Part shown: positions 38,679 through 61,219 of the stretch, one piece after another
How positions within the stretch are numbered: the stretch's first letter is position 1
Layout of the letters: every line of letters starts with the position of its first letter
Assembly: GCA_002245135.1 (NCBI GenBank)
Contig: NGBS01000013.1
Location: forward strand, 102,471-166,470
DNA: 64,000 nt
Source of the DNA: Proteromonas lacertae
Taxonomy: Eukaryota; Sar; Bigyra; Opalinata; Proteromonadidae
Reading direction: 5' to 3'
Made by a program: the position numbers and the translations under genes
Notes under the pieces: generated by a model
What the model saw: only the letters and a program-made list of their open reading frames with translations
Told to the model about the DNA's origin: nothing
Database searches by the model: none

Positions 38679-38720
38679 AATATTTGGCTTGATTGATTTT
38701 GAGATTAAAATTTCTTAAGA

Positions 38721-41327
38721 ATGGAAGAATTTGAAAGTATAAGTGATGAATATTCTGTATATTTTACTGTTGTTTAATATGAAATAGTTGATAAGAGTGA
38801 TAAAGAAGAGTGATTTAAGTGTTTTGTTGGAAGTTAAAGAAAAGAATAGTAATGATATAAAATATGTGAAGATATATAACAGAGATAAAATGAATTTGAG
38901 GTGTCTGGATCGTTTTGTTGAATCACTAGAGAAATCGAGTAATTTGAGAGTGAGCAATGTATTGATATATGATAAATACATAATTACCGAAAAATATGTG
39001 ATATTGATAATGAAGAAATATGAGAGTAACTTAGAAGAGTTAATGTTTAAGAAAGAGTTAAAAGAGATAGAAATCAATGAGATAATGTTAAAATTGATAA
39101 AAGGGATAAAGACATTGGAAGAAAATGGTATGATATATAACAATATCAAACTGAATAATATCTTGTTTGATGAAGAAGGAGATATAATAATAGTTGATAA
39201 TTTAAAATATTTGTTATTGAAAGACAGATTAAATGATATAAAAAGAGATATGGATGAGATAATATATTTAAGTCCAGAAATATTGAAAGATGGAGAAATG
39301 AATGTTGCAAGTGATATATGGAATATAGGAATAATCTATTATAGATTATTAAGAAAAGAAATTCCATTTAAAACCAATTCAATATCTGATTTAATAAAAT
39401 CCATAACAGAATTTAAATATGAAAATAATGATAAACTAAACTATAGATACAATAATATATTATCAAGATCACTAACAGTGGAAAAGTATAATCGAATGAC
39501 AATAGAAGAATTAATATTCAGAATTAGAGTTAATGTTATTATTGAATTATTGAAGAATAAAGAAAAAGAAAAAGCGAATGAAATGATGGTAGAAATGAGA
39601 GAAAACAATTCACAAAAAGAAAACTATAAAATGAATGAGATAATAGGAGATTATTATTATGAAAATGTATATTGTTATATATGATGAAATGAATAGAAAG
39701 AATACAGAGAAGCAATTCCATATTACGAAAATAGATTAGAATATGCTATAACAAATGATCATAAAAAATATTGTTATAATAGTTTAGGATATTGTTATTT
39801 TAAATTAGTATTTATAGATTGATATATAGTGTAGAATGAATATCAAAAATCAATTCAATATTATAAAAAAGCTTTACTATTTTCTACATTAAATGAAGAA
39901 AAAGAAATAAATAATCATGGTATAGGAAAATGTTATTATAAAATTGTATATATATAATAATTATTCATTAGCATCGTTATATGGAAGCAATTATATATTA
40001 TAAAATTGCATTAGAATATTCATCAAGAAATAAAGATAAAGAATATAATAATAGAATGATAGGCAAATGTTATTACTATTCAGTATGTTAATCATTGTAA
40101 TAATAAATAGAAAGAATATAGAGAAACAATTCCTTACTTAGAAAGTGGCTTAGAATATTCATCTTCAAATAAAAATAAAGCATGTAATAATAATGGATTA
40201 GGTTGTTGTTATTTTTTATTAGTATATTTATTATTGTAATATTAAGTAGAAAGAATATAGAGAAGCAATTCCTTACTTTGAAAGCGCCTTAGAATATTCA
40301 TCTTCAAATAAAGAAAAAGCATGTAATAATAATGGATTAGGTTGTTGTTATTTTTTATTAGTATATTCACCATTGTAATATTAAGTAGAAAGAATATAGA
40401 GAAGCAATTCCTTACTTTGAAAGTGCCTTAGAATATTCATCAACAAATAAAAATAAAGCATGTAATAATAATTGGTTAGGTAATTGTTATTTTGATTTAG
40501 TATATTTATTATTGTAATAATAAATAGAAAGAATATAGAGAAACAATTCCTTACTTTAAAATTGCCTTAGAATATTCATCATCAAATGAAGAAAAAGCAT
40601 GTAATAATAATGGATTAGGTTGTTGTTATTTTTTATTAGTATATTCACCATTGTAATATTAAGTAGAAAGAATATAGAGAAGCAATTCCTTACTTTGAAA
40701 GTGCCTTAGAATATTCATCAACAAATGAAGAAAAAGCATGTAATAACAGAATGATAGGCAATTGTTATTTTGATTTAGTATATTTATTATTGTAATAATA
40801 AATAGAAAGAGTATAGAGAAGCAATTCCTTACTTTGAAAGTGCCTTAGAATATTCATCAACAAATGAAAAAATACATATATATAACCGAAATCTTGGTAA
40901 TTGTTATTTTGATTTAGTATATTTATTATTGTAATAATTAACTAGAAAGAATATGAAGAAGCATTGAAATATTATAATACTTCATTAGATTATTTAGAAA
41001 ATGAAAAAGATAAAAATCTAGTAAAGGTAGATATAGCAGAATGTTATTTAGAATTAGGAAATAAAGAAAAGACAATTTCATATTTGAATGAAGTAAAAGA
41101 TGAATTATGTGATGATGAAACAAAATATTGGTATAATAAAGTAATGGGAAAATATTATCTTCAAATTGTATTATTTGATAATTGATATATGATATAAATA
41201 GAAAGAAAAAGAAAAGAGTAAAGAATATTTAGAAGAATCACTCAAATATGTAGATAGTCAAGTGAAGGATGATGAAGAGAAAGAAGAAATAAACAAATTA
41301 TTAGAAGAATTAAACAAAATGAATTAA
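38721..41327 (+). CDS. Pseudokinase-TPR protein, copy A (six-unit TPR array)
   Basis: Exon 1 codes MEEFESISDEYS, then a 31-nt intron, then a ~300-residue kinase-like exon. The catalytic loop reads MIYNNIKLNNI, with Asn in place of the catalytic Asp, and the DFG position reads IVDNL. LSPEILKD and DIWNIGIIYYRL keep the APE and subdomain IX. It is therefore a predicted pseudokinase. After GDYYYEN comes a chain of ~37-residue TPR-type repeats such as KEYREAIPYFESALEYSS, each on its own 111-nt exon, separated by ~28-nt phase-0 introns full of stops. Ten TPR exons are followed by a final helical exon ending EELNKMN at TAA 41325-41327. The protein is about 750 residues. It may be a signalling scaffold. 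GGCTTGA is 29 bp upstream of the ATG. Confidence 0.8.
40111..40945 (+). repeat. Tandem exon-intron array A: six 139-bp units
   Basis: Units begin with AAAGAATATAGAGAA at 40111, 40250, 40389, 40528, 40667 and 40806. Each is a 111-nt TPR exon plus a 28-nt intron (29 nt in the last) starting GTATATT and ending TAG. Exon length is divisible by three and the introns are phase 0, so unit number can change without altering frame. Confidence 0.92.
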
Positions 41328-41418
41328 TTTCTCTGTACTAATTTTTTCCTTTTTGGTTAATATTTCTTATTTCTTTTGTAAAAAACAAAAATTTTCATTT
41401 TTAAAATAAAACTATTAA

Positions 41419-43148
41419 TTACAATCCTCCAGTTAAAGCATGAGCTTTATTCAATTTCTCTCTAACATTTTCTTCACGACAAGCAGCTTGTCTTTCTGAT
41501 TTCTGTTTCTTTTCTGCTTCAATCGCTTTATTCAATGCTTCTTTCAACATTACACCCAATTTTTCATCTCCATCACATATTCTCTTCAACATAGGTGGTC
41601 CAAATCTACAAAACATTTTACCATCCACACTTTCACCAATATTCTTCACAAATTTATTGAATTTTCCTTTGTTTGTACTACTAATCCATTCAACTAATTG
41701 TTCATGGGTAAATCTAACAGGTGGTATAAGAATATCATTGCCAGTTCTACAGGAACTTATTTCTTGATTATTTTCTTTCATTGTATTTTCACTTGCACTC
41801 ATCATTGCAACATGACTTAAAGTGTTTAACGTATGTTCTGTATCTTTTGGATTTGGATTAACCGTCGCAATTACTAAAGTTTTGTCCGTTTCATTTTCAA
41901 ATGCATCTTTCAGCAACATAGTTAATTTACTACTTCTATAAGGAATATGATATTTATTATTATCAATGTCATTACTACTACTATCTTTAGATCTTTCTTT
42001 AACTATTCTTATACACTCTTTTAGACACATTAAGGAGGTGTTTATTTCACTACATTCTCTTCGCTGTTCTGCAGTGTGGAACATGGAATCAATGCTCATT
42101 TCACTTCCTGCTAAATCAACAAGTGTTAATACACGAGATTCATTAGGGTATTTGGAGAGTGAAGTGGTGGTGAATATTATACGAATAATTCCATGAGTTC
42201 TACTGCTTGATTCATTCACAACTAAATATATATATAATGAAAAAGAAAGAAGATAAATTGAGTAGAAAAAACATAGAAGAAAACAATGAAAAAAGTGAAT
42301 TATCAATAATATATATATATACAAGTTGATGAGCTTGTTCTTTCTTTTCTTGATATTTCAATATACTTCATAAATTCATCTTCACTATTCACATTAATAT
42401 ATTTCACCCCTCTAACATGTATTTGCTTATCTTCACCTTCTCGTAAAAATACTTCATGATGATGATTAATTACATTATTATTATTATTATTATTATCTTT
42501 ATAACAATTATTATTATTAATCTTTTTATTTTTAATATTACCATCTTTTGTATAGTTTTCTTTACAAGTATTTATATCTTCAAAATTAAATAAATCAAAA
42601 CATTTTTTACCGCTAATTTCAAAACAACACAGTGATATAGAAACTTTACCGTTTTTAATATCTTTTTGGTTGAATATATCATGAGCTAAGAAATTCTCTA
42701 AATTTGACATTGTGTAAGTTTTGCCTGTTCCAGTTTGGCCGTACATAATACATGTACCGTTACCTTTGAAACTAAACACATGAGCTATAAGATCGACAAA
42801 ACTTTCCATATAAATATCTTCATTTGCTGATGATTCATCATATACTTTGTTGAATTGATAGGATACTGTGTTTATAAACATACGTTTCATGTCAGCATGC
42901 ATTCTACAGTCATGGATATAAATGAAAGGATCTTTGCAGGAAACAGAATTAAATGCTCCTTTTTTTATTTCATCCGGAAATAAAGGTCTAACTCTTACAC
43001 AAACAGTAATTGATCCATTTTCTTCTTCTTCAGTTGCTTCTCTATCCAAATTCTCTCTTATTTTTGATATTTCCCTCATAAAATCATCTCTGAACATTTT
43101 TCTGGCTGTTCTTTTATCTAAATTAGCTCTTGTAATGGCATCTGACAT
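41419..43148 (-). CDS. Kinesin-13-like motor with C-terminal SAM-like domain
   Basis: Two exons; ATG 43148 (MSDAITRANLDKRTARKM) and one intron of about 100 nt near 42222-42322, long for this genome. The motor has the N-terminal strand ITVCVRVRPL, P-loop GQTGTGKTYTM, switch I ESSSRTHGI, switch II LVDLAGSE and the KLTMLLKDAF helix. Layout, with an N-terminal extension then an internal motor, and order of motifs fit kinesin-13, which depolymerises microtubules at spindles and flagella. An Asn-rich loop is inserted at about residues 200-230. The C-terminus (RFTHEQLVEWIS, then DGKMFCRF) resembles a SAM domain, followed by a charged coil ending AHALTGGL. It is divergent from the small gene at 43238. 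Confidence 0.8.
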
Positions 43149-43191
43149 TTTCAAAATTTTAAAAACTCTCAAACCAAATCAAATTGATGAA

Positions 43192-43198
43192 TCAAGCC
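43192..43198 (+). promoter_or_regulatory. TCAAGCC word between kinesin-13 and small coiled-coil gene
   Basis: TCAAGCC lies 40 bp before ATG 43238 and 44 bp from the divergent kinesin ATG. Because it lies inside the longest possible ORF opening at 43184, it favours 43238 as the true start. Confidence 0.4.
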
Positions 43199-43237
43199 AA
43201 TTTCAAATCAAAAAAAGGCGCCAATCCTTTAATTCTC

Positions 43238-43691
43238 ATGTCATTCAATAACCAAGGAGTTATTTCAATTGAAAATCAGGAAAACTTTGAAAACAAAGTA
43301 ATATCTTCTCAGAGTAGTGGTAATAGTTCTTCTAGTAAACGAAAACCAAATTCATTCTCTAAAGATAAGTTAAAAAAGTCTGATAAACAATTTTTTGGTA
43401 CTCCATCTTCTACACAATCAACAGTTTCAACTCAAAGTGATAGATCAGAAACTTTAAATGATGCATCTTTAGTAATACATGCTATTGAATATGGTTTAGA
43501 GGTATATTATTTTATTTATATATTAACTTTAGGATTTACAGTTAAGGTTGGATGAGACACTGAAATATGTTTTAAGTAAAGACTTTGGTGTTGATACAGA
43601 AGCAGAATTCGTATTATTTGAAAAAGAAGAAGAAATAAAACGATTAGAGAAGAGAGTAGCAGAACTAAAACAAGAAATCAACAAGAAATAA
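43238..43691 (+). CDS. Small Ser-rich protein with C-terminal coiled coil
   Basis: Two exons, with an intron at about 43502-43532. The protein starts MSFNNQGVISIENQENFENK, has a Ser/Lys/Thr-rich middle (SSKRKPNSFSKDKLKKS), then ASLVIHAIEYGLE and, after the intron, LRLDETLKYVLSKDFGVD and a short coiled coil (EEEIKRLEKRVAELKQEINKK). About 140 residues, stop TAA 43689-43691. No family recognised. It ends 18 bp from the convergent LCMT1 gene. Confidence 0.55.
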
Positions 43692-43709
43692 TTTAATATA
43701 TGTTTTAAT

Positions 43710-44745
43710 TTATAAAAAACTCTTAAGATTTGGTCTTGACGTGGAATGCTTATCATAATATGTTACTGCCTTATATAATTCAGAGTTTTTAGCAACTATG
43801 AAGAAATAATGGCTTTGCATCATATGATATTCTTCAAATTCATCAAATATTTCCAATTTTGAGATTCTTTGAATTTCATTAGTATCTAGCACTTCATAAT
43901 AAATAGTATTCATATCTTCAATTTCAACATATGGATAACCTAACTCAATATACCTTTGTTTCTGGCTTTCTAATGTTGGATATGTTTCAATACTCTGTAA
44001 TGGACATCCTCGTTCCTATAAAATGATGCAAATAAAAATAATACTATCAAATTTTGAATCATAACTTGTCCAAATGGATCTTCTGGCTTTATTTGTTCAT
44101 AAGTAGTAAATACTGAATTAATAAAATGCTCACTACACCATTTTATCAACGCATTTGATTTTTCTACCGGGATATATACTAACACACATTCGCTAATAAA
44201 TAAAGTAGGATAATCTTTATTTAATCCAATAGAAGTAAATAATAATTCACTTAATTTATCTATATCACATAAATCTACTGATCTTATATAATAATCATCA
44301 GATATTGTTAATTCCGTTTGTGATTCGTTTATTACAAAGTGTTTATCTTCGCCCCATAATATTTCTAATCTGTCTTTGTGTTTTTCCATTTGCTGTATTC
44401 TTTTGTGAATCGAAGGAACTAAATCAACATCTACAAATTTTGAAAAGTGTTGTTTCTTTTCTTTCAACTTGAATATTAATGTGTCCAAACCACATCCAAG
44501 GTTAACTATTTGATGATTACTTCCAACCGATAAAAACTTAGATACAATTATATCAATGGAGGTAACACGAGTATAATAGCCACGGTTAATTAATGGTGAT
44601 TTTCTACCATTCATTGAAAAGAACTTGATGTAATTATCTTCTATGTAACCCTTCTTTGTCAAAGAACTATACAAATGATAAACTTCACATACAATTTACA
44701 CGATGCTGCATCATCAGCGGTTGCACGAACAGCAGAATCACTCAT
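43710..44745 (-). CDS. LCMT1: Leucine carboxyl methyltransferase 1 (PP2A methyltransferase)
   Basis: Three exons. Exon 1 from ATG 44745 gives MSDSAVRATADDAASCK, matching the family opening 'VraTndDA..cK'. After a 26-nt intron comes KKGYIEDNYIKFF, then RKSPLINRGYYTRV, the SAM-binding NLGCGLDTLIFKL, and SECVLVYIPVEKSN. A second intron near 44018-44046 precedes the C-terminal exon with TIYYEVLD and EIFDEFEEYHMMQSHY, the typical end of the family. It methylates the C-terminal Leu of PP2A catalytic subunit and so steers B-subunit choice. It is complete, in frame, about 320 residues, and divergent from WDR4 with a ~64-bp gap. Confidence 0.9.
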
Positions 44746-44809
44746 ATTTTAAAATCTTTCAAAATCTACTCAAGTTTTTGCTTGACATTCAATTTTTAAA
44801 ATCTCGAAA

Positions 44810-46025
44810 ATGTTACAATCAAATGAACATTCACTTTATTTAGCAGTAAAAAATACAATAATGGCATATTCTTTATCGTATTTTATGTTGATTATTATGT
44901 GTAGTGATAAAACAGTCAAATTCAATGTTTCTTGCACATCAGATATACTTACATACACTCTGATTGATAATAGTGAGTGGTTGGCTGTTACTGATTTTAA
45001 TAAAGAGTTATTGATTTTAAATTCAAAAACTGGTGAAACAATATCAACAAGGTATGAATAATAGAAATATAAGATGTATATAGAAAAGTACAGAAGAAAA
45101 TCACTCAGTTAACAGCAATTAAACCACCAGAAGATTATAAGCCATATTACAAAGAATTTCCTTCCTTTATTCTATTAGCTTCAGATAAAGTGGGTGAAAT
45201 ATTGGCGTACCCATTACCGGATATTACAAAACAAGAAAATATGATTTTAGGTCATTGTGCTTCAATAATTACATCATTTGTATATATATATATTATATAC
45301 GAATAGAGTTTTTCATTAGATAATCATTATATCATTACAGCTGATAGAGATGAAAAAATTCGAATTTCAAATTATCCTAAAGCTACAATAATATCATCAT
45401 ATTGTCTTAATCATACAAAGTATGTGTTTTGCTTGAGTGTAATAACAGACAATATACTGATTAGTGGTGGAGGAGATGGTAAATTATGTTTATGGAATGT
45501 TCCAGAAGGATATTTATTGAAAGAATATCAGTTCAATGAATTAGTTGGTTTAGATACATCCTTCTCACTCAATTTGATATATTATAATAGAAAGAAGAAA
45601 TTGTTGTTTGTTTCTCTGTTAAAGTATATTTTTCTAATTGTTTATTATTATTATGAAATAGTCATCCTGTATTATATATACTTAGTGTAAATGAAGATAA
45701 CTATGATTTAGCATTAGTAAACAAGGTTAATTATGAATCTTCGATTATTTCACTGTCATTTACTAATGATGATATTGTTTTCTGCTCTACCAAAGGAGGT
45801 GAATATATTTACACGAATTCAATTAATACAGGAGAAAGAATTGAAAATGAAATAATCAAATCGATCAGAGACAATCTGAAAGAATATTATGATGTATTGA
45901 CCAATTACAATAATGATAGTCAATTCCATGGAGAGCTTGAAAAGGAGCAATTAAAAGTGAGATATGATCCTATTGCCTTAAAAGGACAGACTACTACTTT
46001 AACTCCATATCCTGAGAGTAAATAA
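44810..46025 (+). CDS. WDR4: WDR4/Trm82, non-catalytic subunit of tRNA m7G46 methyltransferase
   Basis: Four exons, with introns near 45052-45083, 45280-45306 and 45624-45661. WD40 blades are visible (LAVTDFNKELLILNS, SLDNHYIITADRDEKIRISNYP, ILISGGGDGKLCLWNV). The DRDEKIRISNYP segment followed by a Cys/His-Thr-xx-V motif (CLNHTKYVF) is the Trm82/WDR4 signature. The partner METTL1/Trm8 adds m7G to position 46 of tRNA. The stop is TAA 46023-46025. GCTTGA at 44781-44786 lies about 25 bp upstream of the ATG. Confidence 0.88.
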
Positions 46026-46120
46026 AGTAATTAAAGTTGTTTATTTTTGTGTTGAAACATTGCTTATTTGAGTGTTTGAATAAAAATACATTTCAAGCCA
46101 AACATTGATATTTTAGAAAA

Positions 46121-47553
46121 ATGGTGTTTAATCCTTCTTGGAAACAGTTAACAATAGCGTCCTCTATTGTGTTCTGGCTTCATGGTTCAATGGTGGCTAT
46201 GGCATATAAGACTAGATATTTTAAGGAGTTCACAACATTTACCTTTGAGTTAATAGCATTTTTTCTTGTTGCTTTTGTAGTAGTGCAGAAGAATAAAACA
46301 ATGGTAAGATTATTAGCAGCTATGGCGTATTTTTAATAAATTATTTATAACTTAGGTATATTATTTGTTCAGCTTTTACTATGACAATCATGTCTGCAGC
46401 TTGTTTCTATAGAAACCCATCACAATTACCAATTCTACCAGATTATGGTTTTGACTTAATTCCAGTAATTACTCATGTAAAATTACCATTTGGGTTATAT
46501 ATAAATGGTCAAACAATACCAGACATACTATTTCCAGTATTGATGTTATCAACTGTAACATTTGTTTTAATTCAAAGTAACAGGTTGATAGTGTTAAGAA
46601 GACTAGCTTTGATATGGGGTACAACAATGTTTGTAAGAACCTTCACATTATTATGTACAGCTATGCCTGATGCTTCTCCTATTTGTCAAGAAATTACAGC
46701 AGGAACTGTATTACTAAATCAAATGTCTATCACTAATATCCTAAATCGTGCATTCTATATAATGTTAGGTGATGGAACATTTACATGTGGAGATTTAATA
46801 TTTAGTGGTCATACTACCGAACTGATGGTTTGTGGAATGGTTTGGCATACTTATTATCCAATCAAAAAGAGAGGAAGTAATGTGATCAAAGCATTAGTTT
46901 GGTTTGTAATAATAATATTATTATATGTACTAATTGGATGTAGAAGTCATTATACGATAGATTGTGTTTTAGCAGTGTATATAAATATAACAATATGGAA
47001 TTTATACCATCGATTCGCTCGAGATGTTCAAATGGGAATTAAAAGCAATTTATTATGGTTTTTGGATGATTTGATTTATAGTTTTATAAACTGGTTTGAA
47101 CAAGATGAAAATGATTTGAATGAATCGAGAATGTTGAATAAAAATATGTTTAATAATGAATTTGATGGAAATAATAACAACAATAGTTATGAGTTGGTTA
47201 TATATTTATTATGTAATAATAAAATAGAAGAGATTAAAGAATTGATTAGTAAAATGGATGTGAAGAATTTGAATATATTAAAAAATGGTTTGAAATATAT
47301 GAATGAGAGTTATTTGAATGAAATTTATAAGTTGTATAGAAGCGAAGAGGAATTGATTAATGTAAATGAAAAGATAGATGAAGTGTCTAAAGTTATTTCA
47401 ATAAAAGAAAATGAAATAAAAGTTGAAGAAGATAAGATCAAAAGAACAAGTGAATTGTATGAAAGTAAAATTAGAGAAGATGAATTATTGAAGAATAATC
47501 TAATGCAATTCTTAAATGATGGTAATATAGAAGATTGTTTGAAATTACTGTAA
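46121..47553 (+). CDS. Sphingomyelin-synthase-like (PAP2_C) membrane enzyme with coiled-coil tail, copy 1
   Basis: Two exons, with an intron near 46328-46356. Several TM helices are followed by the catalytic blocks of the SMS/SMSr family: CGDLIFSGHTTELMVCG (first His) and GCRSHYTIDCVLAVYINITIW (second His and Asp). These enzymes move phosphocholine or phosphoethanolamine headgroups onto ceramide in Golgi or plasma membrane. After the last TM come LDDLIYSFINWFEQDE and about 130 residues with heptad-like charged helices (ISIKENEIKVEEDKIKRTSE), unusual for the family. TCAAGCC at 46093-46099 lies 22 bp before the ATG. It is followed directly by a paralogue, so a tandem duplication is clear. The headgroup donor cannot be read from sequence. 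Confidence 0.85.
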
Positions 47554-47746
47554 ACTATTTAATTAGGCACGATAATAATAATTATTTTAAATAAATGACA
47601 TGTGTGATTTATGATTGTTTGTTAGATTTTAAATTATCATCCTATATAAATTTTAATATTTGAAATATAGGTTTGATTCTTATCAAATCAAAAAACACAT
47701 CAAGCCAAACTTTCATTTTTTTAATTTTGACTTTCTAAGAATTCTG

Positions 47747-49267
47747 ATGATTTTTTTTGTTGAAAACTTAGGAGATTTAACTCGTTATGTATTATTTACT
47801 GTAGTTATTGGGTATTTAATTCAAGCATGGTTTAAATCTCGTGGAGATGTCATGAGAGTATTTATAGCTGTAATGTATAATCAATAATATAATATATAAA
47901 ATAGATATATATTTTTCGCTGCTTATTTAATGGTGTTAGCTTCAGCAACAGCATTTTATAGAAATTTAGCTCAAATAGTCACATTGCCTGATGTAGGATT
48001 TGAATTAGTACCAAAACTAACTCTGTTACATCTTCCATTCGGATTAACAATAACCTATGACAAAATAATAGAAGTATTTTTACCATTTTTAGTGACAATA
48101 ACAACAATATTTGTTTTGTGTAGAAAAGACAGTTTAATTCTATTAAGAAGGATAACAGTGATATGGGGTACATTAATGTATTTACGTACAGTCACTGTAA
48201 TATGTACATCAGTTCCAGATCCATCTAATATCTGTAAAGATATAGATCCATCACTATTAAAAATTTCAAATTTATCATTTTTTGAAATGATGAATAAAAT
48301 AATGATTGTTATATTACCAATCAGTACAGGTAATATAACATGTGGAGATATGATATTTAGTGGACATACAACTTTAATTGTATTATGTGGAATGATATGG
48401 CATACTTACTTCATCAATGATAAAAAACTAAATAATATTCATCATCAATTACATAATAATAAATATTACTATAGAATAATTACAAGTATAATTTGGATTA
48501 TTGTATTTACACTTTTATATATATTAATTGGTGTTAGAATGCATTATACAATTGATGTGTTATTAGGTATTTATATGACAATAACTTTATGGAATTCATA
48601 TCATCGTGTAGGAAGAGATGTTCAAATGGGAATGAAATTCAGTACAATGTGGCTAATAGATGGATTTATTTATCCATTTGTAAAATGGTTAGAAATTGAT
48701 GATGATGATATATCTAATACATTGTTATATAAGAATGATTCTATTAATTCATTTGAATTAATTACCACTATTTGTTCACTTTCACCTGATGTTTTCAAAG
48801 AATTTATTAGTAAAATAAATGGAAATACTTTGATAAGATTACAAAGGGAGATTAAATTATGTAAAGAGAATTATTTGAACGAAAATTTCAAATTGGCGAA
48901 GACTGAAGAAATTGTGGAAGATAATAAAGAAAAATTGACAAAATTGACAAATGAAAAAATGATATTGGAGGAAGAATTAAAAGATAGAAAGTATAAGAAT
49001 GAGTTGACTGTGAAATTATATGAAGCTAAAATAAAGAGGAATGAAAAGATAAAGAATGAGTTGAAGGAGATGTTGAAGAAAGGCAATGTGAAGGAGAGTA
49101 TAAAATTAGCAAAACAATTGAATCAAAGTGATGAGAATAAAGTAGAAAATAAAATTGATGCTAATGAGTTGTTGAATAAGATTGAGATATTGGAGAATGA
49201 GATGAAACATATCAAAGAAAGTAGAAATGAATTTTTGTTGAAGAAATCTGAAGAAGAACATAAGTAA
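47747..49267 (+). CDS. Sphingomyelin-synthase-like (PAP2_C) membrane enzyme with coiled-coil tail, copy 2
   Basis: Two exons, with an intron near 47877-47906. I choose ATG 47747 because TCAAGCC (47700-47706) sits 41 bp upstream; an in-frame ATG at 47660 would precede the motif. The product repeats the organisation of copy 1: TM helices, TSVPDPSNICKDID, CGDMIFSGHTTLIVLCG, GVRMHYTIDVLLGIYMTITLW and a C-terminal coiled coil of about 170 residues (ILEEELKDRKYKNELTV). The catalytic His, His and Asp are all present. Divergence between the copies is large outside the active site, so the duplication is old and the two may differ in substrate or compartment. Confidence 0.85.
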
Positions 49268-49474
49268 TTTATTGATTTTTTTTTGATAATTTTAGTTTGT
49301 TATGGATAAAGAAAGAGTATATGTGATGTAAAATAAGATTTTTAAATAATTTGGTGTTTGAAAACTTCATCCCGCCTTTTAAATCATTAGTTTAATAAGG
49401 TTAAGAGTATAAATTAGCCTCATTTTTCATTCATTTCTTCTTCTTCATATATAGCATATATACACATATAAAAA

Positions 49475-50748
49475 ATGGAAGAAATTGGAATCACTGATTT
49501 TGAAGACAAGCAGCAGGAAAAGCAGAATGAAAACTTGCCATTTGAGATAATTAAAATACAAGTATAGTTATTGCATTTATAAAAATGCCATAGAAATTAA
49601 TATCATCAGGAAAAATATATGAAGCAGTAAAAGAGCTTGAAAGACAACACGAATTTATACATTACCAAGAAGAATACTTGAAGGATGAGATAAAGAATTT
49701 AAACAGAGAATACATACGTGCTTTAGATGAAATAAGCCGAATAAAAACCGTACCACTTACAATAGCTCAATTTATGGAAATGGTTGACACAAACTACGGT
49801 GTAATAGTCACATCATCTGGTACAAACTACTATGTGAGAATATTAAGTACAATTGATCGAGAATTATTGAAACCAAATACAAGTGTCTTAGTTCATAGAA
49901 CATCTCACGCTGTAGTTGATATTTTACCTGCTGATGCTGATACAACCATCCATTTAATGGAAGAAAAACCTGATGTAACTTACGAAGAAATAGGTGGATT
50001 GGATATACAAAAGCAAGAGATGAGAGAAGCTGTTGAATTACCATTAACTCAGGCTGATTTGTATAGACAGATTGGTATTGATCCTCCACGTGGTGTATTG
50101 ATGTATGGACCACCAGGAACTGGTAAGACCATGTTAGCTAAGGCTGTGGCTAATGCAACAACTGCATCTTTTATTCAAGTGGTTGCATCAGAATTCGTGC
50201 AGAAATATTTAGGTGAAGGACCTAGAATGGTTAGAGATGTGTTTAAATTAGCAAAACAACGATCGCCTTGTATTATTTTCATAGATGAGATAGATGCCAT
50301 TGCTACGAAGAGATTTGATGCTCAAACTGGTGCTGATAGAGAAGTACAACGTGTACTATTAGAATTGTTGAACCAAATGGATGGATTTGACCAAACTACG
50401 AATGTGAAGGTTATAATGGCTACTAATAGACAAGATACATTGGATCCTGCTATATTAAGACCAGGAAGGTTAGATAGAAAGATAGAATTCCCTAATCCCG
50501 ATCGAAGGCAAAAACGTTTAGTTTATCAAGCATGTACTAGTAAAATGAATTTATCTGAAGAAGTAGATTTAGAAGATTTTGTAAATAGGCCAGAAAAGAT
50601 ATCAGCAGCTGAAATTTCTTCAATCTGTCAAGAAGCCGGTCTACAAGCAGTAAGAAAGAATAGATATGTTATTATTTCAAAAGATTTTGAAAAAGGTTAT
50701 CAAAAGACAGTCAAGAAAGCTGATACAGATTATGAATTTTATAAATAA
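49475..50748 (+). CDS. PSMC4: 26S proteasome AAA-ATPase Rpt3 (PSMC4)
   Basis: Two exons: a short acidic first exon from ATG 49475 ([14 protein letters not shown]), an intron near 49562-49592, then the rest. An N-terminal coiled coil precedes the OB domain ([18 protein letters not shown]). The AAA core has Walker A GPPGTGKT, Walker B IIFIDEID, sensor [12 protein letters not shown] and arginine fingers RPGRLDRK. The Rpt3-specific tail is [15 protein letters not shown], ending EFYK, the gate-opening HbYX-type end. It unfolds and feeds substrates into the 20S core. It is complete and in frame, with no sign of decay. I see neither promoter word upstream, so these are not universal. Confidence 0.93.
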
Positions 50749-50921
50749 GATATTAAAAAAGATATTAATTTCTAAACTTATTTTTTCTGTGTTTAGTTTT
50801 ACAGATAAGATGTTCAATCATAAGTTTTGAAGTTTTTGAGGAAAATAAAATGTAACGAATTTCAGTCAAGTCAAGCTTGAATGTTGTAATACTTTTTTTT
50901 AAAAGATGATATATTAAGAGA

Positions 50922-52167
50922 ATGAAAAACAGCTCTCCACCAATAAAACCAGATCATAGCTATGATCTTATAAACCAGTCATCTAAAAATCTTTTTATGC
51001 TGCCTAATGTACCATTAACAGATGATTCCCTCTGTGACTTAAAAGATGTTGAAAGATGTGAGACATTTAGCTTAGCAGCAAATGTAAAAATAACACCAAT
51101 AAAAACCTCAAAAATTACAAATCCTCAAAGAAGTTTTTGTCAAACACCTGGTCTTCTTACTCCCACAAAGTCATGTTGTTCATCAAATTATAGCTCAATG
51201 ACCCGTCATTCTAGAGTAAGTACTGTTTTATTAAGTATGGGTTGTAGAAGGTCATTTGCTAAGGCTTCACAACAATTAAGTTCAGGTATACGTACTGCTA
51301 AAAGTTCTAATCCTAAAATTGATGCTATTATTAAAATTCAAAAAATCTGTCGTCATCATTTAGTAATGACTAAATTCCGACAATATGAGAGATATAGAGA
51401 AGAAAGTCGAATTATAACCCATCAAGAGTGTAGAAATAGATTAACAGATTTAAATGAGTTATTTCAAGAGCCATCTCTACAATCATATAGACAAAGGCAA
51501 GTAGATAAAGCCAAAAAAGAAATAATGAACTGCGGAGATCTAATTCGAGAAAAGAAATTGACAGAAACTGATGAATATAGTTTATTAAAAGAACTAATCA
51601 GTTGTTTTTCACTCTCTTCGTGTGAGAATATATTTATAGAAGATATTATCTTGTTAATTATTACAATTTTGAGATTACCAGTTACAGTGGGAGAATTGGC
51701 AAATGATAAGGATGAGGTAAGGTGTATTACTGTATTGTATAAAGGTAAACATCCAATTGTACACTTGGATGACTTTTATAAATGGATTTGTGAATGTATT
51801 TATTATTATTATTATTATTATAGTTCGTAAACACAAGCCATCTCCATTTGGCAAATTATACCAAAAGTTTTTATTCTTTTTACATGAAGATATTCCAATT
51901 GATTTTATTATGTATGTATAATAGTATGTTTATTATTATTATTATAGTAATTATATGCAGTTGAAACAAAACCTATATGATATAGCAATCACACTAATGA
52001 ATTATGATAAGAAAAATCCTCCTTTGTTCAAATGTAAAGTATGTGAAAATTACTCTAATTGTTTTCCTCTTCCAGTGGCAAGACATATAGTGAGGTGTAA
52101 AGTAGAATCGACAAAGAAGAAAAAGAAACAGATTAATTTTGTTAAATCAAAAAACAATTTCTTATAA
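50922..52167 (+). CDS. Unrecognised protein with IQ-like motif and C-terminal Cys/His segment
   Basis: Three exons, with Asn/Tyr-codon-rich introns near 51801-51823 and 51912-51949 (both contain (TTA)n). The N-terminus is Ser/Pro/Thr-rich. IIKIQKICRHHLVMTKFRQY around residue 135 looks like an IQ-type calmodulin-binding helix. A helical middle is followed by LKELISCFSLSSCENIFIED. The last exon ends in CKVCENYSNCFPLPVARHIVRC, a possible C2HC zinc site, and a basic tail. TCAAGTCAAGCTTGA lies about 45-55 bp upstream. No family assigned; a centrosomal or ciliary role would be a guess. Confidence 0.5.
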
Positions 52168-52406
52168 TAATAATAATAATAATAATAGTGGAGATGAATG
52201 TGTTATTTCTCTCTCTTTCTTCCAGTATTATATATGTATATTTTATGGATTAGTCATTTAATTGTTATTATTTTAGATCATTATGTTTGTTTTTAATTAT
52301 TTTATCTATCACTCTCTCTATTTATATATTTTACCCTTTCTAAAGCAACAAAAAAACAAATTTAAAAATGCCTCCCGATATATTTCATTTGTTGTTTAAA
52401 CACTAT

Positions 52407-53038
52407 TTAATTCTTTAATGGAAATTGGAATGAAACATCACGTTGTGTTAATTTCTTATATAAAACTGAGAATGTTTCTAATTTAGTTTCTACAACGGTT
52501 TGTTCTGATGGATCTAAATAAACTTTTAATAATTTGCTTCCATCAGTTCCATATCTAGTTCTCTTACCAACGATTTCAGTTGGGAATACTAAATCTTCTA
52601 AAATAGCTTCATGAACATTGGTGATTGTTCTACTTCTTGGTAATGGACCATGGTTCTTTGTTCTCTTCCATGCCTTACCTAAGATGGTTCTTTGGGCAAC
52701 AATAACAACATGATGATCACTAGTAAATATTATTATATTAATTTAAATACGCGAATTTCTTTTCTAATTCTCTTACTAAAGTCTTTTGGATTTTGTGGAA
52801 TGCTTTTAATAATGGGCATGGTACGAAAAGAATGATAGCTTTTTGTCCTCCAGCAATATCTTGTTCTTTAGCACTTACAATGTGTAATTTTGATAACTCT
52901 TCTTTGATTTCAGAGTTTCCATCCTATTTAAATTAACTAATTTCAATAAATACTTGGAATAGCTTGGATTTCTTGAGCTACTTTTAATTCAAAAGCATCT
53001 GGTTCTTGTTTTCCTGGTTTTACTATTTTTGAAGACAT
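52407..53038 (-). CDS. RPS7: 40S ribosomal protein eS7
   Basis: Three exons from ATG 53038 ([20 protein letters not shown]), introns near 52925-52954 and 52719-52749. Conserved blocks are [61 protein letters not shown] and [13 protein letters not shown]; the end [14 protein letters not shown] matches the family. The stop is TAA at 52407-52409. The first splice junction leaves the frame off by one: phase 1 upstream, while the family sequence [11 protein letters not shown] needs another phase. A spare base lies near 52918-52926. Such a defect in an essential single protein suggests a consensus error or an unusual splice. Confidence 0.9.
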
Positions 53039-53575: not shown

Positions 53576-56252
53576 ATGGAAGAAACTGGTAGAGAGACAG
53601 AAGATTATTACAAAATAATCAATGAATTGAAAGAAGAAAATAGACAACTTAAAACTAAAGTATAATACTGACTATAGTGTGATAGATTGAAAATCAAGCC
53701 TTTCTTCTCAAGAAGACAGAACAGAAATTGAAGAATGCTAGTAATGGAGGAAGAAAATCCACAGCAAGCGCAAAGAAATCTATAATAGGAAGTGAAGGAG
53801 GTGATAAAAGTAGAAGGACTGATGAAAACCAACAATTAAAGTATTAAATAATGAACTAATATGTAGTAAAACAATATTAAAGTTGAAAGAAGAAAATGAG
53901 CATTTACAAAGTTATGCAAAGAAACTAGAGAATGAACAATTGGATTTAAAAGACTCAGTAACACAACATCTAACAGAATTGGCTGAAGAGAAAAGAAAAG
54001 TAGTAGAATTAAATGAAAAAATAACCAGAAACGAATTAGACTTGAAAATCCAAAAATCAACAATAGATGAAAAGGATCAACAAATCAAAAAGCTTGAAGA
54101 TGACTTGTTTAAAAGTAGTAAAACTGTATTAATGGATTATAACCCAGAAAATGAAGAAGAAAAGACAATATATGAAAAAACAATAAAAAATATGAAAATT
54201 CAAATGATGAGTAGCAATAGTGATAATTATAATATAATAAATGAATTACAGACTGAATTATATATGACAAAATTGACATTAAATAAACAAAAATTAGAGT
54301 ATATATTGTTATATATAATTTCATTTTATTTTATATTTAGTTATGAAGAGGAAATTCAAAATTGTTTATTATCATTAGAAATACAAAAGACAGAAAATGA
54401 AAAGAAATATGAAGATTTAAAGAATGAATATTTGGATTTTAAGAATAAAGAAAATAAAAATAAAGAAATTCTATTGGAGGAACAAAATATAATAATCAAA
54501 TCATTACAATCTCAGTTTGATTTGTATAGAAATACAGCAGAATATTTATTTCAAAAAGAAATATCTCGTTTAAAGGAAATAATCAAAAATCAAATGATTA
54601 AATATGAGTTAGAAATAACAAAGTTATGTAATATGAAAGAATACCATTATGAACAGATAATATCGAGTAAAGATAGTAAAATAATGAATTTAATTGACGG
54701 AACAGATATTCAAGTATATATATTAATAATTAATTTTAATCATATAGAGTTTAATATTGAAATATGAAAGTGAAATAAATGATATAAAAAAGAGTTGTAG
54801 AGAAGAGACGAATAGAATAGTGGATAATTTACAACGTTCTCAAAGTGAAGAAATTTCTAGATTAAATAATGATATATTCAGCCAACAGGAAATAATAGAA
54901 AATTTAAAAGAAAACATACAAAGTTTAAATGTATTTATATATTTATTTAATCTATAAATAGAATGTACAATATAATTTAAATAATCAAATCAAAAGAAAA
55001 GATCAAACTATTCACAAGCTTGAAGATCAATTATCTCATGAAAGAGAAACATTAACATCCAAAATCAACGAACAGTCTAAGAATATAAATAATTTAGAGA
55101 TAAAAATACATCATTTAAAACATTTATTATTACAATATAAATTAAATGAAAAAGGTGAAACAGATGAATCTTTAAAGATGTTAACAAAATATTTGAATAA
55201 TGAAATGATAAAGTTGAATGATGATTATAATATATTAGTTGATAATCATAAATATAATGAATATGAAAGAAACGAACTGATGAGATCTAATCGATTTTTA
55301 GAATCTCAAAATGAAAAATTGAAAAATGTATATTACATATAATAATATCTTAAAAATAGGCTTTAGAATCTCAAACAAGAGAATTTAACAATCTAAACAA
55401 AACTTTGAAAAGTGTAATACAACATCGAGTTAATACATTAAATACAATCAATGACAATGAAAAAAGTAAAAGAATATTATCATTCGAAAAAGATCAAATA
55501 AAACCAATTTATCATGGAAGTGGAATTGGAATACCCAAAGCCCTTGAAACGATAAGAGTATTACTAATAATAATATTTATATAATGTATAGAGATATACC
55601 AAATCTCCAATTCCTACTCCCATTAATAAACCTATTAATACAAACATTAGAAGTATAAACTCTTTATTATCCAATAATGATTCTTATCTTAATACAGAAC
55701 AACAATATAATCCTTCTCCACAACCCCAACCTCCAAAATCATCTTCTTCACATATTTCTGCTGCTATTACAACTACAAATAGAAATAAAATATTGAAAAA
55801 TAAAGTAATTAGATTCAAAGAACCAAAGAAAGTATAATATGATATGAATATTAATAATAATAAATTAGATGAAAGAAAGAAAAGAAGAAAATGAAAGTGA
55901 AGTAATAGATAGTAAAACAATCGAAATATTAGAAAAAGGATTAATTTCAATAAAACATTTTAACAATATAAGTAAAGCGTATTCGAATGGTAATTATGAT
56001 TTGAAGAAAGATAGAGAAGGTAATTTAAATAGAGTAGTATTAAATAATGAAATTAATGATAATGATTTTTTGAACAGTTCAGGAAAAGTTAATACGATGA
56101 ATAATAATAATAGTGATGATAATGAAAGTGAAGAAAATGAAAATAGAAAGATATTTGATAATAATAAGAGTATAGATATTTTAAAGAATGGTCGAAATAA
56201 TGTTAGTAATGAAATTAAAGAAAACTCAAATTTGAGAGCTTTATCAGTTTAA
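53576..56252 (+). CDS. Long coiled-coil protein
   Basis: About ten exons from ATG 53576 (MEETGRETEDYYKIINEL), with introns near 53659-53684, 53841-53866, 54300-54341, 54714-54748, 54932-54960, 55327-55358, 55559-55591 and 55838-55870. Most of the ~800 residues are heptad coiled coil rich in Glu, Lys, Asn and Leu. The opening block with KEENRQLKTKIENQAFLLKK resembles the N-terminal coil of basal-body or ciliary scaffolds such as the RPGRIP1/LCA5 groups, but this is weak. A Pro/Ser-rich linker (NPSPQPQPPKSSSS) precedes an Asn/Asp-rich C-terminus with stop at 56250-56252. Because several exons carry their own in-frame ATG they can be mistaken for separate genes; the splice joins show one gene. 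Confidence 0.6.
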
Positions 56253-56406
56253 TATTTATTATGTTATGTTTTTTGTACGGATTATCTTAATTGATCATAA
56301 TTTTTAATAGTAATTTTCACAGTTTATGTAAATATGAAGTATTTACATAAAAAAACATTAAAAAAATATTTGGCTTGATTGATTTTGAGATTAAAATTTC
56401 TTAAGA

Positions 56407-59400
56407 ATGGAAGAATTTGAAAGTATAAGTGATGAATATTCTGTATATTTTACTGTTGTTTTATATGAAATAGTTGATAAGAGTGATAAAGAAGAGTGAT
56501 TTAAGTGTTTTGTTGGAAGTTAAAGAAAAGAATAGTAATGATATAAAATATGTGAAGATATATAACAGAGATAAAATGAATTTGAGGTGTTTGGATCGTT
56601 TTGTTGAATCACTAGAGAAATCGAGTAATTTGAGAGTGAGCAATGTATTGATATATGATAAATACATAATTACCGAAAAATATGTGATATTGATAATGAA
56701 GAAATATGAGAGTAACTTAGAAGAGTTAATGTTTAAGAAAGAGTTAAAAGAGATAGAAATCAATGAGATAATGTTAAAATTGATAAAAGGGATAAAGACA
56801 TTGGAAGAAAATGGTATGATATATAACAATATCAAGCTGAATAATATGTTGTTGAATGAAGAAGGAGATATAATAATAGTTGATAATTTAAAATATTTGT
56901 TATTGAAAGACAGATTAAATGATATAAAAAGAGATATGGATGAGATAATATATTTAAGTCCAGAAATATTGAAAGATGAAGAAATGAATGTTGCAAGTGA
57001 TATATGGAATATAGGAATAATCTATTATAGATTATTAAGAAAAGAAATTCCATTTAAAACCAATTCAATATCTGATTTAATAGAATCCATAACAGAATTT
57101 AAATATGAAAATAATGATAAACTAAACGAAAGATACAATAATATATTATCAAGATCACTAACAGTGGAAAAGTATAATCGAATGACAATAGAAGAATTAA
57201 TATTCAGAATTAGAGTTAATGTTATTATTGAATTATTGAAGAATAAAGAAAAAGAAAAAGCGAATGAAATGATGGTAGAAATGAGAGAAAACAATTCACA
57301 AAAAGAAAACTGTGAAATGAATGAGATAATAGGAGATTATTATTATGAAAATGTATATTGTTATATATGATGAAATGAATAGAAAGAATACAGAGAAACA
57401 ATTCCATATTACGAAAATGGATTAGAATATGCTATAACAAATGATCATAAAAAATATTGTTATAATAGTTTAGGATATTGTTATTTTAAATTAGTATTTA
57501 TAGATTGATATATAGTGTAGAATGAATATCAAAAATCAATTCAATATTATAAAAAAGCTTTACTATTTTCTACATTAAATGAAGAAAAAGAAATAAATAA
57601 TCATGGTATAGGAAAATGTTATTATAAAATTGTATATATATAATAATTATTCATTAGCATCGTTATATGGAAGCAATTATATATTATAAAATTGCATTAG
57701 AATATTCATCAAGAAATAAAGATAAAGAATATAATAATAGAATGATAGGCAAATGTTATTACTATTCAGTATGTTAATCATTGTAATAATAAATAGAAAG
57801 AATATAGAGAAACAATTCCTTACTTAGAAAGTGGCTTAGAATATTCATCTTCAAATAAAAATAAAGCATGTAATAATAATGGATTAGGTTGTTGTTATTT
57901 TTTATTAGTATATTTATTATTGTAATAATAAATAGAAAGAATATAGAGAAGCAATTCCTTACTTAGAAAGTGCCTTAGAATATTCATCTTCAAATGAAGA
58001 AAAAGAATATAATAATAATGGATTAGGTTGTTGTTATTTTTTATTAGTATATTTATTATTGTAATATTAAGTAGAAAGAATATAGAGAAACAATTCCTTA
58101 CTTAGAAAGTGCCTTAGAATATTCATCTTCAAATAAAAATAAAGCATGTAATAATAATGGATTAGGTTGTTGTTATTTTTTATTAGTATATTTATTATTG
58201 TAATAATAAATAGAAAGAATATAGAGAAGCAATTCCTTACTTAGAAAGTGCCTTAGAATATTCATCTTCAAATGAAGAAAAAGAATATAATAATAATGGA
58301 TTAGGTTGTTGTTATTTTTTATTAGTATATTTATTATTGTAATAATAAATAGAAAGAATATAGAGAAGCAATTCCTTACTTAGAAAGTGCCTTAGAATAT
58401 TCATCTTCAAATAAAAATAAAGCATGTAATAATAATGGATTAGGTTGTTGTTATTTTTTATTAGTATATTTATTATTGTAATAATAAATAGAAAGAATAT
58501 AGAGAAGCAATTCCTTACTTAGAAAGTGCCTTAGAATATTCATCTTCAAATGAAGAAAAAGAATATAATAATAATGGATTAGGTTGTTGTTATTTTTTAT
58601 TAGTATATTTATTATTGTAATATTAAGTAGAAAGAATATAGAGAAGCAATTCCTTACTTTGAAAGTGCCTTAGAATATTCATCAACAAATGAAGAAAAAG
58701 AATATAATAATAATGGATTAGGTTGTTGTTATTTTTTATTAGTATATTTATTATTGTAATAATAAATAGAAAGAATATAGAGAAGCAATTCCTTACTTAG
58801 AAAGTGCCTTAGAATATTCATCTTCAAATGAAGAAAAAGCATGTAATAATAATGGATTAGGTCGTTGTTATTTTTTATTAGTATATTTATTATTGTAATA
58901 ATAAATAGAAAGAATATAGAGAAGCAATTCCTTACTTAGAAAGTGCCTTAGAATATTCATCAACAAATGAAAAAATACATATATATAACCGAAATCTTGG
59001 TAATTGTTATTTTGATTTAGTATATTTATTATTGTAATAATTAACTAGAAAGAATATGAAGAAGCATTGAAATATTATAGTACTTCATTAGATTATTTAG
59101 AAAATGAAAAAGATAAAAATCTAGTAAAGGTAGATATAGCAGAATGTTATTTAGAATTAGGAAATAAAGAAAAGACAATTTCATATTTGAATGAAGTAAA
59201 AGATGAATTATGTGATGATGAAACAAAATATTGGTATAATAAAGTAATGGGAAAATATTATCTTCAAATTGTATTATTTGATAATTGATATATGATATAA
59301 ATAGAAAGAAAAAGAAAAGAGTAAAGAATATTTAGAAGAATCACTCAAATATGTAGATAGTCAAAGAAATGATGATGAAAAGAAAGAAGAAATAAACAAA

Positions 59401-59430
59401 TTATTAGAAGAATTAAACAAAATGAATTAG
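56407..59430 (+). CDS. Pseudokinase-TPR protein, copy B (nine-unit TPR array)
   Basis: Nearly identical paralogue of the gene at 38721. It has the same first exon and ~300-residue pseudokinase exon, with NNIKLNNM in place of the HRD-type loop and VDNL in place of DFG. It differs by a few residues, for example LLNEEG for LFDEEG. Nine array units are followed by the conserved larger TPR exon at 59049 and a final exon ending NKMN with TAG 59428-59430. The predicted protein is about 865 residues, some 111 longer than copy A. Several neighbouring units in this copy are nearly identical, showing recent expansion. GGCTTGA (56372-56378) is 29 bp upstream of the ATG. Confidence 0.8.
57797..59048 (+). 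repeat. Tandem exon-intron array B: nine 139-bp units
   Basis: Units start at 57797, 57936, 58075, 58214, 58353, 58492, 58631, 58770 and 58909. Exon halves alternate between two subtypes, one with AATAAAAATAAAGCATG and one with AATGAAGAAAAAGAATA, so part of the array looks like a doubled 278-bp higher-order unit. Introns are mostly the same 28 nt, with a variant reading GTAATATTAAGTAG at its end. Confidence 0.92.
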
Positions 59431-60811: not shown

Positions 60812-61127
60812 GAAAATTCATCTCTCATAGTATGATCTGTATATATATAATCTTTATTATTTTTGATCTATTATATTTGTCTATGTATAAGATTCTATTA
60901 TTGATAATATCAAGTTAAAAGAAGAAGATTTAATATATTGATGAAATAGAAAAATTGAATAATCAGTGAGAAAATTCATCTATCATAGTATGATCTGTAT
61001 ATATATAATCTTTATTATTTTTGATCTATTATATTTGTCTATGTATAAGATTCTATTATTGATAATATCAAGTTAAAAGAAGAAGATTTAATATATTGAT
61101 GAAATAGAAAAATTGAATAATCAGTGA
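60812..61127 (+). repeat. 158-bp non-coding tandem direct repeat, two copies
   Basis: The block starting GAAAATTCATC at 60812 repeats at 60970 with one or two substitutions and ends at AATCAGTGAGAA near 61127. It lies between two genes and has no ORF. Confidence 0.9.
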
Positions 61128-61219
61128 GAACTTTGTTTTGTCTTTATTTTATAATTGAATTTTTCGATAAGATTTTCATTTTCTTTTTTCTTGTATTTTT
61201 TGATTATTAAAATAAAAGA

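Follow-up and report, generated by a model that had tools for sequence, protein, structure and literature searches.

Tandem 139-bp exon-intron units in two TPR genes of Proteromonas lacertae with a predicted pseudokinase domain

We analysed a 64,000-nucleotide stretch of a Proteromonas lacertae contig (NGBS01000013.1; hereafter, the window) that contains two gene copies, A and B, with tandem TPR arrays. These are very probably spliced protein-coding genes, each encoding a predicted pseudokinase joined to a TPR solenoid, that grow and shrink by whole exon-intron units. The exon/intron anatomy, the whole-unit differences between assembled versions of the same locus, the range of unit numbers and, among the matches listed, the confinement of the array intron to unit-bearing contigs were seen directly.

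Gene anatomy and introns

Splice reconstruction showed that copies A and B read in frame as full ORFs of 753 and 864 aa, respectively, once all of the introns (27/27) are taken out. The exons of copy A are of 36, 879, 9 × 111, 222 and 126 nt (n = 12 introns) and those of copy B are of 36, 879, 12 × 111, 222 and 126 nt (n = 15 introns). The introns are 26–34 nt long and every junction is in phase 0. In both copies a Pkinase-like domain is followed by the consecutive 111-nt phase-0 exons, nine in A and twelve in B, of which the last six (A) and the last nine (B) make up the 139-bp array; three older, diverged 111-nt exons lie 5' of it in each copy. The 222-nt exon consists of two units with no intron between them (Table 1). 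The first-pass annotation had described the unit as a 111-nt phase-0 exon plus its own 28-nt intron, and this was confirmed by splice reconstruction and TRF, as were the counts of six units in A (exons 40111–40916) and nine in B (57797–59019). TRF gave the period of 139 at 40003–40963 (86% matches) and 57689–59066 (92% matches).

Table 1. Coordinates of the features of copies A and B in the window
Feature	Position	Strand	Basis
Gene copy A, spliced CDS 753 aa, 12 introns	38721..41327	+	splice reconstruction
Exon 2 of copy A, coding for the protein-kinase-like domain (predicted pseudokinase, with the HRD Asp replaced)	38788..39666	+	
Three 111-nt exons of copy A, older and diverged (39697-39807, 39835-39945, 39972-40082; introns between of 27 and 26 nt)	39697..40082	+	splice reconstruction
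Array of copy A, 6 × 139 bp (111-nt exon preceded by its 28-nt intron), plus the next intron of 29 nt	40083..40945	+	TRF, splice reconstruction
222-nt exon of copy A, a fusion of two TPR units with no intron	40946..41167	+	
Copy A last exon, TAA stop	41202..41327	+	
Gene copy B, spliced CDS 864 aa, 15 introns	56407..59430	+	splice reconstruction
Copy B exon 2, protein-kinase-like domain	56474..57352	+	
Copy B, three older 111-nt exons (57383-57493, 57521-57631, 57658-57768)	57383..57768	+	splice reconstruction
Array of copy B, 9 × 139 bp (111-nt exon preceded by its 28-nt intron), plus the next intron of 29 nt	57769..59048	+	TRF, splice reconstruction
222-nt exon of copy B, a fusion of two TPR units (helices predicted at 2-16, 20-36, 40-49 and 57-73)	59049..59270	+	
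Copy B last exon, TAG stop	59305..59430	+	

We searched for chains of units, each defined as a GTA..TAG intron (20–38 nt) with an open exon of exactly 111 nt and GTA. The longest chains in the window, on the + strand, had 12 and 9 units, and chains of two or more units appeared in none of 40 second-order Markov shuffles of the window. Every intron had been said to carry stops, which holds for 12/12 introns in A and 14/15 in B, but not for the first intron of copy B; it lies outside the array and is 31 nt long, so that its retention would shift the frame. The array-intron pattern with its junction had 105 matches in 50.2 Mb, compared to 0 for the reversed control, and among the 100 matches listed all were on unit-bearing contigs. 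Genes for the U2 (168.6 bits) and U5 (92.2 bits) snRNAs were found in the assembly, and another gene of the window, starting at 44810, has 372 open codons only after removal of 27–38-nt GT..AG introns. Judged from the sequence, the array introns would qualify as spliceosomal, having GT..AG ends, a frame that is restored on their removal and spliceosomal RNAs in the genome.

Between the two copies lie unrelated genes for a kinesin, an LCM methyltransferase and two PAP2_C proteins (Pfam), along with a WD40-like and a coiled-coil gene judged by eye only. A protein search with one neighbouring PAP2_C gene gave 6 hits. Neither tRNA genes nor Rfam matches at the gathering score were found in the 64-kb window.

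The encoded protein

Copy B matches PF00069 with 78.8 bits (cut-off 31.7). In the kinase-like exon HRDLK is aligned to YNNIK, where the catalytic HRD Asp is absent, and DFG is aligned to DNL, where the Asp is retained; YNNIKLNN and VDNL are invariant in 7 aligned copies. As the catalytic HRD Asp is replaced, the domain is a predicted pseudokinase. Among 7992 scored candidates, 24 were distant matches to the copy B protein, and PF00069 was present in 7 of these 24. The structure model of the kinase exon was poor (pLDDT 44.4) and was set aside.

The TPR_1 profile scored 223.3 bits on spliced copy B (cut-off 27.8), and by profile (PF00515, PF13424) copy B is a TPR repeat protein. Its Pfam scan gave 18 families, of kinase and TPR types plus ANAPC3, Paf67 and ARM_TT21, with NB-ARC absent among them. 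The repeat period is not the canonical 34 residues of TPR, but 37, and 38 in 12 of the 54 units of the C784 gene. The two-unit exon was predicted to form four helices, the five models (alignment of 6 sequences) having pLDDT values of 92.9, 91.9, 83.2, 55.5 and 49.7. The exon had been taken to code for one 37-residue repeat; it does specify 37 residues, but it does not equal one TPR. Exons join at TPR position 14|15, within the turn that links helix A to helix B, and one exon holds helix B of one TPR and helix A of the next. Because the junction is in this turn, the protein should fold with any integral number of units.

The core residues of the TPR are invariant and the variation lies mostly on one face. 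Amino-acid variation is concentrated at the ligand-contact positions 2, 5, 6, 9, 12 and 13, with a mean entropy of 1.60 versus 0.31 (p ∼1e-4 over 34 positions; 0.004 within helix A). Core conservation, entropy, array pN/pS and unit distances were computed on 86 of the 147 parsed exons, namely those of 111 nt that are open, begin with KEY and come fourth or later.

Unit number and variation across the assembly

Second versions of both loci are present in the same assembly, and are presumably haplotypes or alleles of them. Contig C817 is collinear with the A locus and contig C266 with the B locus. The first-pass annotation had named the comparison of unit numbers as a check, and between the two assembled versions the number differs in both cases: the C817 array is exactly 139 bp (1 × 139; one unit) shorter than that of A, and the C266 array exactly 695 bp (5 × 139; five units) shorter than that of B. 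The downstream flanks of C817 and A match at 2572 of 2574 aligned columns with 0 mismatches, and C266 and B match at 2922 of 2928 columns over the upstream region and gene. The junction unit of C817 is a mix of two A units. The B copy of C266 has one single-base deletion in the kinase exon, and the A copy of C817 has several kinase-exon indels with 7 stops inside the match. As the kinase exon is flawed in both, these versions may be dead alleles or poorly sequenced.

We parsed 11 genes, representing 9 loci, two of them in two versions. The numbers of 111-nt-class exons per gene were 4, 4, 5, 5, 7, 8, 9, at least 9, 12, 23 and 54, so that among paralogues, where it had also been proposed to compare it, unit number is not fixed. 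The chains of C387, C10 and C219 were parsed in part, and C916 by hand only (the parser found no start); further unit-bearing places outside the parsed set are in C786, C785, C633, C579, C580, C133 and C387 near 29 kb. Gain or loss had been claimed to preserve frame and splicing always. Whole-unit changes do so, but 12 of the 147 parsed exons are not open in frame, among them 3/54 in C784 and 6/23 in C267; four of the latter six have a TAA following a 3-nt loss. Some of the non-open exons may be assembly errors or parser mis-splits, which occurred at least in C784 at 6261 and C267 at 1432, and possibly at the non-open last exons of C387 (119 nt) and at one of C1111.

The divergent paralogues C1111, C830, C39 and C10, as well as the older units, have the intron at the same site with unrelated intron sequence. 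As these paralogues share the layout and their intron sequences are unrelated, the exon-intron layout is old and the 139-bp amplification recent.

Distances between the 86 units were 6.0 within and 12.9 between loci, of 111 (0/1000 permutations). This likeness is driven by C784 (4.6 of 111) and C267 (6.8); within A (15.5) and within B (10.6) the units do not clearly resemble each other more than units of different loci do. In a set of 78 units (38 distinct), also the basis of the first dN/dS estimate, exon and intron types co-vary weakly, with a Mantel r of 0.17 for the 3' intron (1/500 permutations) and 0.08 for the 5' intron (72/500). The array pN/pS was 1.12 (codon bootstrap 0.62–2.16), about 1, and at the variable codons synonymous change was raised as well. 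We do not claim positive selection on the array, for which a first dN/dS had been 1.58 (703 pairs) before the fuller pN/pS estimate. Between the kinase exons of A and B alone there were 2 synonymous and 9 nonsynonymous changes, an approximately neutral proportion. Higher-order (multi-unit) repeats in C784 were weakly indicated and not retained; its longest repeated run of 5 units was reached in 45 of 1000 shuffles.

Mechanism, alternatives and precedents

We propose that the ancestral gene would have had one short phase-0 intron per helix A/helix B turn, and that in the A/B clade one exon-intron unit would have been amplified at the DNA level into a tandem repeat of 139 bp. Whole units would be added or removed when units misalign during recombination, through unequal crossing over or slippage, with conversion between units and between gene copies also at work, and each step would give the solenoid one helix pair more or fewer. 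Because each unit holds one complete exon and one complete intron, the reading frame and the splice junctions would survive. We infer, along with recombination, that the introns are spliced and the protein is made, and that longer solenoids would alter binding.

It is unlikely that the unit-number differences of C104 from C817 and C266 are assembly artefacts, that is, a collapsed or expanded array of one haplotype. Similar 139-bp units are hard to assemble, C817 starts inside the locus and has many single-base indels, and the flanks hardly differ (0 and 3 mismatches), all of which would suit an artefact. However, the stretch that measures 7.5 kb in the window (43500–51000) takes up ∼14.1 kb in C817, with matches seen at both ends only, and C817 carries the B-copy base at 4 neighbouring sites of the 11 A/B diagnostic sites. 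Moreover, both differences are exact unit multiples, and the range of 4 to 54 among genes is independent of the locus versions.

A non-coding satellite or pseudogene family, in which the 139-bp unit amplifies as DNA and the coding look is inherited, is less probable still. The broken units in C784 and C267, the kinase-exon indels in the C266 B copy and the C817 A copy and the array pN/pS near 1 are in its favour, whereas both A and B have an ORF that runs uninterrupted from the start to the stop codon, 135/147 exons are open, the kinase exon has a pN/pS of 0.51 (n = 9 copies), and the TPR core is conserved with variation on one face. Separate insertion of an intron into each repeat, as in an introner-like burst, rather than copying with the exon, is very improbable. 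It would account for each unit having a single intron in the same position; the intron sequences, however, are alike within the array, and the 100 matches listed for them all fall on unit-bearing contigs. Since older units and divergent paralogues have the same site with unrelated sequence, the intron position is old and its sequence was copied with the unit.

Exon, intron, frame and fold period all coincide in 139 bp, and very short introns can let a minisatellite-sized DNA unit serve as a frame-safe dial of protein length. A doubtful but possible further reading is that the array serves to generate variability in a recognition surface, in which recombination, and possibly frame-neutral exon skipping, alter the number and order of units that keep an invariant TPR scaffold and differ at ligand-contact positions. 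If so, the genes would encode a family of pseudokinase receptors or scaffolds, and their binding face would diversify as fast as a minisatellite. The genes also offer a testable system for the speed at which repeat proteins lengthen and for splicing fidelity over up to 54 similar consecutive splice sites, where skipping would be frame-silent, and they bear on why ORF-based annotation misses such genes.

The first-pass annotation knew of few examples with so small a spliced unit. This understates the precedents, as Tetrahymena LRR genes and brown-algal genes have repeat-wise in-phase exons. In the open-licence literature searched, no TPR array built from so small a unit was found. The unit of the human LPA kringle IV type 2 VNTR holds exons and introns. 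This VNTR is protein-coding, with 1–40 units per allele of 5.6 kb each (PMC11462820); it resembles the A and B arrays as a coding tandem unit, but the unit is about forty times larger. In brown algae, according to the accessible portion of PMC11378527, ROCO LRR exons are of 72 bp in phase 2, individual repeat motifs lie on separate in-phase shuffling exons, the LRR exons are reported to be alternatively spliced, and a TPR version exists in NB-ARC-TPR genes (citing Zambounis 2012 and Teng 2023). These share with A and B the separate in-phase exon for each motif; they differ in having NB-ARC or ROC-COR in place of the kinase-like domain, and that portion does not describe a minisatellite-sized exon-intron unit.

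For the group III LRR genes of Tetrahymena, Xiong et al. 2019 (PMC6564038) give tandem 90-bp exons in phase 2, with 1–51 exons per gene in T. thermophila, introns mostly of ∼257 bp (122 bp in a subset), a unit of ∼347 bp and thousands of genes. Unequal crossing over was proposed for them, and the seven top domains of the species-specific genes in Tetrahymena include TPR and kinase (PMC6564038). In both systems the tandem exons share a single exact length and a single phase, and are repeated together with their introns as the unit. Unlike the Tetrahymena arrays, those described here are of TPR, with 111-nt exons in phase 0, 28-nt introns, a 139-bp unit and a kinase-like fusion. The array works like the Tetrahymena 90-bp LRR exon arrays without being a member of them, which suggests that such exon arrays recur as a solution and are not an isolated oddity.

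Exon structure of the repeat genes

Copies A and B were rebuilt exon by exon from the sequence of the window (C104:102471-166470; G+C 25.2%), which belongs to an assembly of 50.2 Mb in 1181 contigs. This splice reconstruction gave phase 0 at every exon junction of both genes, with introns of 26-34 nt (GTAT...TAG). The last six (A) or nine (B) 111-nt exons make up the 139-bp array (TRF matches 86% and 92%, respectively), and the first three are diverged. Reconstruction and TRF confirmed the observation in the first-pass annotation that the repeat unit is an exon with its own intron, present six times in A and nine times in B; the interpretation placed on it is right in its core, with details corrected. 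The genes are a variant of an already known gene kind, with new features. Their 222-nt exon spans exactly two units of 37 residues, uninterrupted by an intron, so that the boundary intron is missing once.

Features of the window and of two further array loci of the assembly
Feature	Position	Strand	Description
Two 327-bp copies	29643-30311		96% alike; in a lysine/glutamate-rich stretch, coding-looking by eye
Copy A	38721-41327	+	exons: 12-codon, 879 nt, 9 x 111 nt, 222 nt, last 126 nt
Two PAP2_C genes in tandem (Pfam)	46381-49267		best database match of the first, 41% identical over 65%
Copy B	56407-59430	+	exons: 12-codon, 879 nt, 12 x 111 nt, 222 nt, last 126 nt
Short telomere-like run	59897-59912		CTAACCCTAACCCTAG; contig-internal, downstream of copy B (by eye)
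Two 158-bp copies	60812-61130		99% alike; adjoining the multi-copy segment
Multi-copy segment	61140-63900		near contig end; complete on 10 other contigs and partial on C403, at about 100% identity; putative recent multi-copy or subtelomeric element
L073	C784:7600-16900		single gene with 54 consecutive array-class exons
L074	C267:5800-11200		four 108-nt array exons sharing a 3-nt loss that creates an in-frame TAA

Each exon had been taken to code one 37-residue repeat; the length stands, but the junction falls between helices. Helix A of a TPR ends near position 14. Pfam TPR_1 positions 6-29 align with copy B residues 741-764, which places the junction between TPR positions 14 and 15. For the 74-residue double-unit exon, structure prediction (best pLDDT 92.9, two of five models poor; 6 sequences) gave helices at 2-16, 20-36, 40-49 and 57-73, and the unit boundary 37|38 is an inter-helix turn. 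Therefore, an exon corresponds to helix B of one TPR plus helix A of the next, and insertion or skipping of whole units, in any number, is predicted to rejoin an A helix to a B helix.

The claim that every intron carries stops held for 12 of 12 introns in A but for 14 of 15 in B (in-frame stop if retained); the frame thus requires intron removal. A gene starting at 44810 (WD40-like by eye) also needs introns of like size removed (32, 27 and 38 nt), and U2 and U5 snRNA genes are present in the genome. The array intron with its junction had 105 matches genome-wide, compared to 0 for the reversed control; the 100 listed lie on C104, C266, C267, C784, C785, C789, C817 and C916, all unit-bearing contigs.

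The 879-nt exon of both copies codes a protein-kinase-like domain (Pfam Pkinase, 78.8 bits in copy B). In alignment to the kinase motifs, HRDLK is replaced by YNNIK and DFG by DNL, residues invariant in seven aligned copies, two of them at 66-67% identity. With these residues, the domain is unlikely to be catalytic in the usual way, and it may bind ATP.

Unit number and reading frame across the assembly

We observed collinear matches on two other contigs. Window 41330-43500 and 51000-52490 match C817:3346-5517 (about 100%) and C817:19568-21042 (99%), and window 51000-54000 matches C266:465-3457 (99%). The copy A of C817 is exactly 139 bp shorter, with a mixed unit at the junction, and the copy B of C266 lacks exactly 695 bp (five units). 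These whole-unit differences are consistent with the proposal that unit gain or loss lengthens or shortens the array. The simplest reading of C817 and C266 is as a putative second haplotype. The single-base deletion in the kinase exon of C266 copy B and several indels in that of C817 copy A speak against working alleles. At 4 of the 11 sites in this exon that distinguish A from B, all within 39150-39169, C817 carries the base of copy B, consistent with a short conversion tract. About 14.1 kb separates the C817 matches to the ends of the 7.5-kb stretch 43500-51000; judged from these end matches, C817 appears to be about 6.5 kb longer here.

The proposed comparison of unit number across the genome gave 4 to 54 exons outside the 222-nt class in 11 parsed genes (9 loci): C789 and C266:23k, 4 each; C104:35k and C1111, 5 each; C266 copy B, 7; C817 copy A, 8; A, 9; C266:65k, at least 9; B, 12; C267, 23; and C784, 54. 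Mean unit distance was 6.0/111 within loci versus 12.9/111 between them (86 units; 0 of 1000 permutations). This likeness comes from C784 (4.6), C267 (6.8) and C266:65k (4.4); units of A (15.5) and B (10.6) differ among themselves as much as units taken from different loci do.

Among 147 parsed exons, 122 are open at 111 nt, 12 at 114 nt (all in C784, with one codon added near the end of helix A) and one at 105 nt. Four exons of 108 nt in C267 have an in-frame TAA, a stop interrupts two exons of 111 nt, and six are out of frame, at least two of the non-open exons being parser mis-splits around an indel. Open exons number 51 of 54 in C784 and 17 of 23 in C267. The statement that frame is always kept therefore applies to whole-unit changes, but not to the non-open exons of C784 and C267: small indels occur, and some copies are probably broken, or the contigs bearing them have sequencing errors. 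The TAA shared by the four L074 exons appears to have spread along the array by copying, as a nonsense variant; it could be tolerated only with exon skipping or in a dead gene.

Sequence variation, age and precedents

The kinase exon had pN/pS = 0.51 (9 copies; A versus B alone, 2 synonymous and 9 nonsynonymous changes), and the array units 1.12 (bootstrap 0.62-2.16), indistinguishable from 1. Over 37 distinct, non-independent unit proteins, mean entropy was 1.60 at TPR positions 2, 5, 6, 9, 12 and 13, ligand contacts in HOP (PMC1261162), versus 0.31 at other TPR positions (p 1e-4; inside helix A alone, p 0.0038). At the seven positions found most variable by Magliery and Regan (PMC1261162) it was 1.14 versus 0.38 (p 0.0065; their helix A positions inside helix A, p 0.04). 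Variable sites off the ligand face are TPR position 1 (1.57) and one inter-repeat residue (1.67). The pattern would be expected both under relaxed constraint on an exposed face and if a binding face were diversifying. Synonymous change is also raised at the same variable codons, which, together with the non-independence of units, calls for caution on selection readings.

Strict chains (intron GTA...TAG of 20-38 nt plus open 111-nt exon) of 12 and 9 occur in the window, and length 2 was reached in 0 of 40 Markov-2 shuffles. With exons of 105-117 or 222 nt allowed, no chain of two was found in eight other TPR loci of the assembly (L001-L008, best TPR_1 matches), a sample in which two pairs look like duplicates and which came from a six-frame search favouring long exons. 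This looser search found chains in the divergent kinase-TPR paralogues C1111 (55% identity), C830, C39, C10, C219 and C9, and none in C848 (46% identity). Intron sequences were unrelated in C1111, C830, C39 and C10, the divergent paralogues whose introns were read. Given these chains with unrelated introns, the one-intron-per-unit layout predates the array that amplified in the A/B clade.

Such spliced units had been thought to have few examples, and precedents argue otherwise. Tetrahymena LRR genes have tandem phase 2 exons of exactly 90 bp, separated by introns of about 257 or 122 bp; a T. thermophila gene has 1-51 such exons, and one proposed mechanism is unequal crossing over (PMC6564038). 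According to PMC11378527, brown-algal ROCO genes have alternatively spliced 72-bp LRR exons, and the paper cites TPR exon shuffling in the NB-ARC-TPR genes of these algae. LPA KIV-2 is a coding VNTR of 5.6-kb units (PMC11462820). Compared to these precedents from the open-licence literature, the A/B arrays have as their own the combination of 28-nt intron, phase 0, A/B-turn junction and 139-bp unit.
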